Shown piece after piece: positions 1,695-48,140 of a stretch of DNA of 52,102 nt (position 1 is its first letter; each line of letters opens with the position of its first letter). This DNA is from Candidatus Omnitrophota bacterium (lineage in GTDB: Bacteria; Omnitrophota; Gorgyraeia; Gygaellales; Profunditerraquicolaceae). A program made the translations under genes and the position numbers. The notes beneath the pieces were generated by a model that saw nothing but the letters and a program-made list of their open reading frames with translations, searched no databases and was not told the origin of the DNA. The DNA is taken from positions 1 through 52,102 of the forward strand of contig JAPLLS010000094.1 of assembly GCA_026387435.1 (NCBI GenBank), in the 5' to 3' direction.

Positions 1695-4509
<2,815 letters not shown>

Positions 4510-44976: not shown

Positions 44977-45594
44977 ATGGCTAAAATAAAATTAACTAAA
45001 GGCGAGTTAAAAAAACAAAGGGACGCTTTAAAGCAGTTCCAGCGGTATTTGCCGACGTTACAATTGAAAAAACAGCAGCTGCAGATGGAGATTTTGCGCT
45101 GGAACGCCGTGCTTCAGGAAAAAATCCGTTTAGTTAATACCAAGAAGCTGGCCGCGTCAGGTTGGGCCGGGCTTTTGGTAGAAGCGGGTCCGACGATCAA
45201 AAATTGTATTACTCCCTCGCGGATAGTTCTGGGCTCTAAGAATATTGCCGGAGTTGATTTGGTGGTTTTTGAACAGGCCCAATTTCCTTTGCCGGAATAC
45301 GACCTATTCGCAGTTCCGGCCTGGGTGGATGGCGCTATTGATTTTTTGCGGGAGCTGGTATCTTTGCGCGAGGAGATCAAAGTCATCGAGGCAGCGATAC
45401 TCAGCTTAAGATATGAACTTCGCATCACCTCGCAAAGGGTGAATCTTTTTGAGAAGGTAAAAATTCCCGAGGCGCTGGAGGCGATCCGCCGGATCAAGAT
45501 ATATATCGGCGACCAAATGGCTAACGCCGTAGGCAGATGCAAGATCGCCAAACGAAAGATCGAAGAGTTGGAAGCTTTTGAGGTGGCGGTATGA
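44977..45594 (+). CDS. atpD: V-type ATP synthase subunit D
   Basis: KLTKGELKKQRDALKQFQRYLPTLQLKKQQLQMEI; typical subunit D N-terminus. Confidence 0.92.
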   Translation: MAKIKLTKGELKKQRDALKQFQRYLPTLQLKKQQLQMEILRWNAVLQEKIRLVNTKKLAASGWAGLLVEAGPTIKNCITPSRIVLGSKNIAGVDLVVFEQAQFPLPEYDLFAVPAWVDGAIDFLRELVSLREEIKVIEAAILSLRYELRITSQRVNLFEKVKIPEALEAIRRIKIYIGDQMANAVGRCKIAKRKIEELEAFEVAV

Positions 45595-47336
45595 TCGTTA
45601 AGATGAAAAAAGTCTGGCTGGTCTGCCAGTCTAAAGACGCGCAAAGCACTGTCAGCCAATTACGCAAACTTGGGCTGGTGCACGTAGAGCATCAGCAGCC
45701 GCCGCAGAGTAAAGATATCGCCGCTCTTGAGGAGGATATCAACGTGTGTTCCGGCGCTCTGGATGTTTTGTCGCGCTACTGCTTGGGGCAGGAAAAACCA
45801 CCTCAAAAGCCTGTGTCCGACTGGAAGCTGGCCAGCCGGCATATCATTGATCTGGATAAACGGCTGGACCAATTGCGGGAATATTCTTTTCTAGTTAAAA
45901 ATAGGATATTCAAGTGGGAGCTTTGGGGGGACTTTGAGCCCGCGGCAATACTTTCTCTGGCCGCAAAACATATCTTTATCCGTTTTTATGAGATCCCTGT
46001 AAATGAAATTAAGAATTTGCCGGCAGAGCTTATCGTTAAGAAGATTTCTGTCCGGGGAAATATCGCCAATTGTGTTATTGTTTCCCGGGAGAAAAGAGAT
46101 ATCGCCTGGAAGGAAATACCTGCGCCCAAGGCATCCTTAAGCGCTATGCGCCACAAACTGCAACAGGATAGTTTGGTCGAGGATGCTCTTATCAAGGATT
46201 TGTGCAAGCACAGCGACCATTACGAGGATATCCTTAAGCATAAGGTTCTGCTGGAAAAAGAGCTTGCCTTTCAAAAGGCCTTGCAAGGCATGGGCCAATC
46301 GGGCGGGTTGGTTTATTTGGTCGGTTACACGCCGGTTGAAGCGGTCGCTACGTTGGAAGAGACTGCCCGGGCTTATCAGTGGGGTATTTCAATTCAGGAT
46401 CCTGCTGATGAAGATGTAGTCCCGACTTTACTGCGTCAGCCAAGATGGGTTTCAGTGGTCAGGCCGTTACTAAGCTTTTTGGGCATAACTCCTGGTTACC
46501 GGGAGCTGGATGTCAGTTGGACATTTTTGATATTCTTCAGCATATTCTTCGGCATCCTCATCGGAGACGCCGGATACGGGGTGGTATATTTACTTCTGAC
46601 CCGGTTCGTTTTAAAACGCAAATTAGGCCTTAAACAGGCTAAGGCCACGCTGTTGTTATACGTGTTGAGCAGTTCAGCAATTATCTGGGGCATGCTCAGC
46701 GGAACTTTCTTTGGCCAACAGTGGTTAAGCGGGGTTAAGGTCAGCGCGCTTGTTCCACAGCTCAATGACGCCAAGTTCTTCCAGGCGCTCTGTTTTTTCC
46801 TGGGCGCGGTGCATTTATCCATCGCGCATTCCTGGAGAACGATCTTGAAGCTGCCGTCTTTGTCCGCTCTGGCGGATATAGGTTGGCTGTTGATCGTCTG
46901 GGCGGCATTTTTTCTGGCTCGGACGCTCATCCTGGACGATCCTTTCCCGTGGTTTGGCAAGCCGCTTCTTTTTAGCGGGATCAGCCTGGTGGTTTTATTC
47001 ACTAACCCGCAGAGAAATATGCTTAAGGCGATCGGAGAAGGGTTGGGCACTATTGCTTTGAGTTTAGTGAACAGCTTCACAGATGTGGTTTCTTATATCA
47101 GGTTATTTGCCGTGGGCATGGCCGGGGTCGCCATCGCCGACGCGACCAATGCCATGGCAAGTTCCAGCGGCAATGCTGTTGCCGCGGTAGTGATCGTATC
47201 GATCGGCCACGCGCTGAATCTGGTTATGGGCCCGATGTCCGTGCTGGTGCACGGAGTAAGGCTTAATATACTTGAGTTTTCCGGCCACGCCGGCGTATCC
47301 TGGAGCGGCGAGACATATGAGCCGCTTGCGGAATAG
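45591..47336 (+). CDS. atpI: V-type ATP synthase subunit I
   Basis: C-terminal multi-TM: FGILIGDAGYGVVYLLLTRF, SFTDVVSYIRLFAVGMAGVAIADA, HALNLVMGPMSVLVHGVRLNILEF. Confidence 0.95.
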   Translation: MIVKMKKVWLVCQSKDAQSTVSQLRKLGLVHVEHQQPPQSKDIAALEEDINVCSGALDVLSRYCLGQEKPPQKPVSDWKLASRHIIDLDKRLDQLREYSFLVKNRIFKWELWGDFEPAAILSLAAKHIFIRFYEIPVNEIKNLPAELIVKKISVRGNIANCVIVSREKRDIAWKEIPAPKASLSAMRHKLQQDSLVEDALIKDLCKHSDHYEDILKHKVLLEKELAFQKALQGMGQSGGLVYLVGYTPVEAVATLEETARAYQWGISIQDPADEDVVPTLLRQPRWVSVVRPLLSFLGITPGYRELDVSWTFLIFFSIFFGILIGDAGYGVVYLLLTRFVLKRKLGLKQAKATLLLYVLSSSAIIWGMLSGTFFGQQWLSGVKVSALVPQLNDAKFFQALCFFLGAVHLSIAHSWRTILKLPSLSALADIGWLLIVWAAFFLARTLILDDPFPWFGKPLLFSGISLVVLFTNPQRNMLKAIGEGLGTIALSLVNSFTDVVSYIRLFAVGMAGVAIADATNAMASSSGNAVAAVVIVSIGHALNLVMGPMSVLVHGVRLNILEFSGHAGVSWSGETYEPLAE

Positions 47337-47356: not shown

Positions 47357-47425
47357 TTCTTCCCCTCGCGCTATCTGCGCTCGGGGTCAATTTTTCCTTC
47401 TACAGTAATGTTTTGGAAAAATTGA
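47357..47425 (+). repeat. Structured duplicated element, copy 1
   Basis: TTCTTCCCCTCGCGCTATCTGCGCTCGGGG then 11-bp inverted repeat TCAATTTTTCC/GGAAAAATTGA; shared with copy 2. Confidence 0.9.
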
Positions 47426-47486
47426 GGACTGCGGAACTCGCGGCGAACAGTGCCCAAAATCTCCGTAAATACTAGAGGAGGCTTAC

Positions 47487-47948
47487 ATGGAGTCAAATGT
47501 TTTAATGCAGTTTAAGGATCTGGGGCTGGGGATGGTTTTGGCGTTGTCGGCTTTAGGGTCGGGATCAGGGGCCGGGATCGCCGGCATGGCCGCCATCGGA
47601 GCCTGGAAAAAGAATTACAGTCAGAATAAGGCGGCGTCTATGCTTTTGGTTGCTTTTGTCGGCGCGCCCTTGACGCAAACGGTTTATGGTTATATTGTCA
47701 TGACCAAGCTCTATGAATTAGCTAGCCGCGGCCAGTATCTTTGGGGTATCGGCGCTTTTGCCGGTGCGGCCATCGGGCTTTCCGCGTATTGGCAGGGCAA
47801 GTGCGCTGCCAGCGCCTGCGACGCTATGGGCGAAACCAATAAAGGGTTTACCAACTACCTGATCGTTCTGGGGATGACCGAAACCGTAGCTTTGCTGGTT
47901 ATGGTTTTTACCCTGACTATCCTGGGCAAGCTGTCGGCCGCGGGATAA
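47487..47948 (+). CDS. atpK: V-type ATP synthase subunit K (proteolipid, two hairpins)
   Basis: Gly/Ala-rich four-TM protein; PLTQTVYGYIV and GMTETVALLVM. Confidence 0.94.
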   Translation: MESNVLMQFKDLGLGMVLALSALGSGSGAGIAGMAAIGAWKKNYSQNKAASMLLVAFVGAPLTQTVYGYIVMTKLYELASRGQYLWGIGAFAGAAIGLSAYWQGKCAASACDAMGETNKGFTNYLIVLGMTETVALLVMVFTLTILGKLSAAG

Positions 47949-47990
47949 CCCGGGTTGAAATAGCGCAGGTTTTGTGGTGGCATTGAATGA

Positions 47991-48062
47991 TTCTTGCCCC
48001 CTCGCGCTATCTGCGCTCGGGGTCAAAAAATTCTTCTATAGTTAATGTTGGGAATTTTTTGA
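47991..48062 (+). repeat. Structured duplicated element, copy 2
   Basis: TTCTTGCCCCCTCGCGCTATCTGCGCTCGGGG then 11-bp inverted repeat TCAAAAAATTC/GAATTTTTTGA; shared with copy 1. Confidence 0.9.
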
Positions 48063-48063
48063 G

Positions 48064-48140
48064 GGGCGCTTAGCTCAGCTGGTTAGAGCATCTGCTTTAC
48101 ACGCAGAGGGTCAGGGGTTCAAGTCCTCTAGCGCCCACCA
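48064..48140 (+). tRNA. tRNA-Val (anticodon TAC), CCA encoded
   Basis: Acceptor GGGCGCT/AGCGCCC, anticodon arm TCTGC-TTTACAC-GCAGA, 3' ACCA. Confidence 0.96.

Follow-up and report, generated by a model that had tools for sequence, protein, structure and literature searches.

Mobile elements as a rule spare essential genes or use "safe" places, e.g., tRNA 3′ ends. Very small mobile palindromes are known from Rickettsia (palindromic elements) and from cyanobacteria (small dispersed repeats); they extend to essential genes and RNA genes, entering coding sequence or other repeats. IS200/IS605-derived palindromic elements (PATE-like) have subterminal hairpins and a fixed orientation to the target, and they show no target duplication. 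REP/REPIN elements are mobilized by TnpA-REP (RAYT, Y1 HUH) (PMC8266576, PMC6006769, PMC3733652). In the open-access literature searched, neither an RNA motif or repeat from Omnitrophota nor a mobile element targeting Shine-Dalgarno (SD) sequences was found. In this study, a stretch of 52,102 nucleotides from an Omnitrophota genome (the window) was analyzed. The two repeats at its atpK gene very probably represent a miniature palindromic DNA element that is mobile but non-autonomous and restricted to Omnitrophota. It inserts precisely, without duplication or deletion, and would move as folded single-stranded DNA.

The two duplicated elements bracketing atpK were placed exactly as the original prediction had claimed. 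Copy 1 (47362..47427, + strand; covariance model 94.6 bits) lay in the intergenic region between atpI (45591-47336) and atpK. Copy 2 (47998..48064, + strand; 90 bits) abutted its target neighbor, tRNA-Val (tac; 48064..48140, + strand), with one base between its second hairpin and the tRNA start at 48064. The atpK gene (V-type ATPase proteolipid; 47487..47948, + strand) lay between the copies, and its own SD, AGAGGAGG, was ~50 nt downstream of copy 1. Both elements were ~66 nt long and consisted of a GC-rich hairpin, P1, followed directly by an AT-rich hairpin, P2. P1 of copy 1 (47362..47386, + strand) read CCCC-TC-GCGC-TATCT-GCGC-TC-GGGG, and its TC/TC internal loop (UC/UC; GA/GA on the other strand) was conserved in both copies. 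The shared imperfect hairpin was confirmed as a 25-nt box, CCCCTCGCGCTATCTGCGCTCGGGG, identical in P1 of copy 2 (47998..48022, + strand); the number expected in shuffled windows was 0. The P2 arms differed between the copies yet paired, also as claimed. P2 of copy 1 (47387..47425, + strand) comprised TCAATTTTTCC (47387-47397), a loop (47398-47414) and GGAAAAATTGA (47415-47425), followed by GG (47426-47427). P2 of copy 2 (48023..48062, + strand) comprised TCAAAAAATTC (48023-48033), a loop (48034-48051) and GAATTTTTTGA (48052-48062). Both copies folded better than all of 200 shuffles (z −5.8 for copy 1 and −3.4 for copy 2). As single-stranded DNA, both strands folded about equally well, with P1 slightly better on the GA/GA strand. 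No match was found at the element in Rfam, also at a relaxed threshold.

The genome, in which the window is contig C7, is 1.78 Mb. A pattern search of this genome gave 7 boxes, and the reversed control gave 0 matches. A covariance model built from six copies gave 22 matches, 14 full-length and strong and 8 weaker or partial, a count in which weak copies may be missed. The family was larger than originally noted, and the arms of the further copies paired. The 14 full copies were at unrelated loci and had P1 and the P2 loop in common. Copies preceded tRNA-Val, tRNA-Ala, tmRNA, 5S rRNA, dnaK, rpsK, and other ORFs (gene names were read from N-termini). Across P2 of six copies, 6 of the 11 pairs were changed on both sides and 0 on one side only. 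P1 variation in further copies was also paired (GCGC/GCGC, GCCG/CGGC, and GGCG/CGCC). Degenerate or tandem copies were also present, and C108 (L045:4164-4365) had three tandem units of 68 nt. Several solo copies had upstream flanks that were complementary to the left arm of P2, like remnants of tandem arrays. A weak model match (E 0.001) in C49 (L055:3458-3521) lay within the RNase P RNA gene (3341-3734); it may be a chance match or an insertion in a variable rnpB helix.

The spread of the element was investigated in other genomes. A strict pattern matched in 20 of the 128 genomes from the order and in 41 of the 384 from the phylum, and its reversed form gave 0. When 84,980 species genomes were scanned, 44 matches were obtained, 43 of them labeled Omnitrophota. 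The other match, labeled Nitrospirae, was in a MAG (L094, JACROO010000054.1) and may reflect a mislabeled bin or horizontal transfer. Elements of other genera had the same plan, NNNN-TC-G..C-TC-N'N'N'N'-TCAA(W)TTT..loop..AAA(W)TTG, in which the invariance of the TC/TC loop is partly built in by the search patterns. The apices and loops were unrelated, being wholly different between clades. The outer P1 stem pairs covaried: of 147, 73 were TCCC/GGGA, 30 CCCC/GGGG, 27 TCCT/AGGA, and 2 TCTC/GAGA. Some low-scoring R1 matches in relatives (e.g., L019, L039, and L040) were not elements. Spread by phage was rejected, as a first viral scan gave 0 matches and a second gave 2 chance matches without the P1 box.

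Genes with the element in one genome, G297, were compared with their orthologues in nine relatives. Most orthologues had no element at the corresponding place. For rplT, the site was empty in G374, G210, and G391 (TACGGCTAAAGAG^GAGGTTTTAA-ATG) and filled in G297 (TACGGCTAAAGAG[element]GAGGCAATCAA-ATG). For rpsS, the empty site of G264 was GCGTAAAAAGAG^GAGAAAA-ATG and the filled site was GCGTAAAAAGAG[element]GAGAATATCA-ATG; for glnA, CAAAAG^GAGG (G264) corresponded to CAAAAG[element]GAGG. G210 was filled at gapA (AAAGG[element]GAGG versus AAAGG^GAGG in G391) and at ribH (AAAAGG[element]GAGGTGTAG versus AAAAGG^GAGGTGTAG in G374). When the element (YCCC...TTTGG) was removed, the alignments of these five genes were gapless at the junction, with no target duplication or deletion. 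The agreement was less exact for amt, glnB, and rpsG. Because empty and filled sites join exactly and most relatives are empty, the element is identified as a miniature mobile palindrome (REP/MITE-like). Among the readings put forward in the original prediction, namely a repeat ncRNA, a transcription/processing signal, or a MITE-like element, the clean empty sites strongly supported the last, and the element is not in the first place a conserved ncRNA. Once inserted, it may also act as a signal. A scar-like sequence, AAATTTGAGAGG, was seen at rpmA of G374.

The family conserves the order of atpK followed by tRNA-Val, often with tRNA-Asp. Over the 30 loci compared, the ~170 nt upstream of atpK held the element only in the genome of the window; the 29 family relatives had none there. 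The 5′ end of tRNA-Val was filled only in the genome of the window and in G109, G124, and G125, and it was empty in, e.g., G120, G111, G119, and G090. The site was TAAATTTAC^GGGCGATTAG in G120 and TAAATTTGC[element]GGGCGATTAG in G109. The filled sites had three different P1 types, those of the three relatives belonging to other subfamilies. Since three P1 types and empty relatives occur at this site, more than one insertion event took place there. At ribH, 5 of 8 genomes were filled, with differing P1 apices. The yebC SD was filled in several genera (L037, L073, L147, and L249, leaders in four genomes). The recurrence at yebC and ribH may reflect hot spots or host use. Some observations count against a mobile element: copy 1 is not at an SD, no movement within one species was seen, and the recurrence at ribH, yebC, and tRNA-Val could be use by the host.

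The commonest target was a gene's SD, of the form R-rich G^GAG(G); next were tRNA, tmRNA, and 5S 5′ ends and, for antisense insertions, tRNA 3′-CCA and 16S 3′ ends. Among 156 elements with context, 109 preceded an ORF, and the ATG was mostly 9–14 nt past the P2 arm. Another 17 adjoined tRNA or tmRNA 5′ ends; at tRNA 5′ ends, the insertions abutted within 0–2 nt. At tRNA 3′ ends, 13 elements were antisense and ended at CCA, of which the flank TGG is the complement. Two elements abutted the 16S 3′ end exactly, starting at the next base, with the flank AAAGGAGGTGATCC. These were L137 and L138 (G351 and G418), inserted at position 1501 beside the anti-SD sequence. P2 faced the G-rich side of the target. 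GAGG/GGAG was found at the right flank of 125 of the 156 elements, versus a 3.1% background of random 8-mers from the same loci, a figure partly forced since some loci were found by the 84,980-genome scan with a pattern ending in GAG. The 36 copies of G297 were found without any flank requirement, so they give a cleaner target figure: 27 of the 30 read were at ORF SDs, and their orientation was uniform. The affected genes were housekeeping genes (rpmA, rplT, rpsS, tuf, recA, rho, and dnaK). The cut position within the SD was AAAGAG^GAGG, and a usable GGAGG stayed beside the start codon after insertion. Comparison of the genome sequences demonstrated the dispersal, precise insertion, target preference, and fixed orientation of the element.

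The element resembles REP/REPIN elements, since both are short imperfect palindromes with many copies per genome, intergenic and non-coding. A two-base mismatch is conserved in its stem, as in E. coli REPs, and Y1_Tnp genes occur in most of these Omnitrophota genomes. However, the element has no GTAG/GT[AG]G or CGTC tag, the sequence 5′ of P1 being AAGG or variable (plus) and TTGA (minus). It always carries a second, perfect AT-rich hairpin, it inserts precisely in SD sites, and it does not flank Y1 genes as expected of a cognate tnpA-REP. Of the 128 genomes of the order, 105 had Y1_Tnp genes, whether or not they carried the element. Among 30 Y1 loci from 13 genomes, none was flanked by the element, except for one incidental copy near a Y1 gene of G125. 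RAYT/REP pairing was rejected on these grounds, and the presence of Y1 is uninformative. MITEs and pneumococcal BOX/RUP (PMC3049150) are likewise small, non-autonomous, hairpin-forming insertions by genes, dispersed and with empty sites in relatives. Unlike MITEs, the element has no target-site duplication and no matching transposon ends, and it has a strong SD/RNA-end target. It shares with IS200/IS605-derived (PATE-like) elements the lack of target duplication, the hairpins near the ends, and the fixed target orientation, but no tnpA-carrying element with these ends was seen, and the left flank has no consistent tetranucleotide across clades. In contrast to the Rickettsia and cyanobacterial palindromes, it inserts at SDs and at the ends of RNA genes. 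As it lacks the REP tag and flanking transposase as well as the MITE duplication and shared ends, it is classified as miniature palindromic mobile DNA set apart by its SD/RNA-end target.

From the lack of target duplication and the likeness of P1 to REPs, whose stem also holds a conserved mismatch (PMC8266576, PMC6006769), the route of movement was inferred to be the single-stranded, hairpin-guided one of IS200/IS605 and REP elements. In this route, the element would move as folded single-stranded DNA, with P1 and its conserved 2 × 2 mismatch as the recognized foot and P2 as the end hairpin. An HUH/Y1-type enzyme encoded elsewhere may cut and join, a step given a likelihood of about one third from the analysis. 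The search for an autonomous partner or a transposon with matching ends found none. The complementary changes in P2 would then reflect maintenance of the palindrome in the DNA and not an RNA function.

The very regular placement directly 5′ of SDs and tRNA/tmRNA/5S ends, the housekeeping targets, and the covariation in the P1 and P2 helices would also fit a conserved 5′-leader RNA (attenuator, antitermination or processing signal) controlling highly expressed genes, with two stacked hairpins ending at the SD or the mature RNA end. Such an RNA is unlikely. The element is missing from most orthologues (ribH being a partial exception) and the joins are clean; it is also found, in reversed orientation, past the 3′ ends of tRNA and 16S genes, its loops and P1 apices are wholly clade-specific, and Rfam has no match. 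Departures from pairing were counted in P1b, the only helix that the search patterns did not force, where 11 G-T and 9 A-C were found in 543 cells. The control, tRNA acceptor and T stems at the same loci, had 59 G-T versus 19 A-C. The balanced departures, unlike those of tRNA stems, appear to fit a DNA palindrome without a favored strand better than an RNA helix, though they are suggestive only. The arm changes were almost all Watson-Crick and G-U was not clearly in excess, which points to a DNA hairpin. Strand assignment by G-T versus A-C was rejected, as no strand was clearly favored. The original prediction had taken the compensated changes as selection on structure; the paired changes are real, but they do not call for selection on RNA structure, as G-T and A-C were about equal in P1b. 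Perfectly compensated hairpin changes can thus stem from DNA palindromes, which calls for caution in covariation-based ncRNA discovery.

The exact abutment at tRNA 5′ ends, CCA, and the 16S 3′ end is what would be expected if a retro- or RNA-linked mechanism directed insertion to RNA ends (tRNA 5′/3′, 16S 3′, and SD-proximal mRNA ends) and not to a DNA motif. This mechanism is very unlikely, as most sites are SDs and not known RNA ends, and a G-rich right flank (GAGG, TGG, GGG, and AAAGGAGG) is common to all sites, for which a DNA motif is simpler. A promoter module, suggested by the −10-like TATAAT in the P2 loop TTCTATAATAATGTT of own-genome copies just upstream of each gene, is hardly credible and was rejected, since TATAAT is limited to own-genome loops, the loops of relatives are short (TTC) or longer and unrelated, and no −35 was seen at a fixed distance.

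As a mobile palindrome, the 65-nt element enters the SDs of core genes, among them those for ribosomal proteins and elongation factors, and the site still works afterwards; this provides a route through the gene-dense parts of a small genome. The core genes of Omnitrophota gain removable 5′-leader hairpins, and these offer natural with/without comparisons for translation studies. It is tentatively proposed, as a somewhat doubtful extension, that the element represents a phylum-specific class of mobile DNA that has the SD motif as its very target, along with the complementary sequence at the 16S 3′ end, remakes the motif so that essential genes tolerate insertion, and is moved by a not-yet-described transposition system.

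Other repeats were found nested in the element. In the gapA leader of G378 (L313) and the rplT leader of G357 (L304), a second hairpin repeat family (GTCCCGCC..TTTT..GGGCGGGGC) was nested in the P2 loop. At five loci of G297 (L221, L235, L236, L247, and L250), the P1 apex contained a nested inverted box (TCCCTCG-TCCCGAG..CGAGGGA-CTCGGGA).
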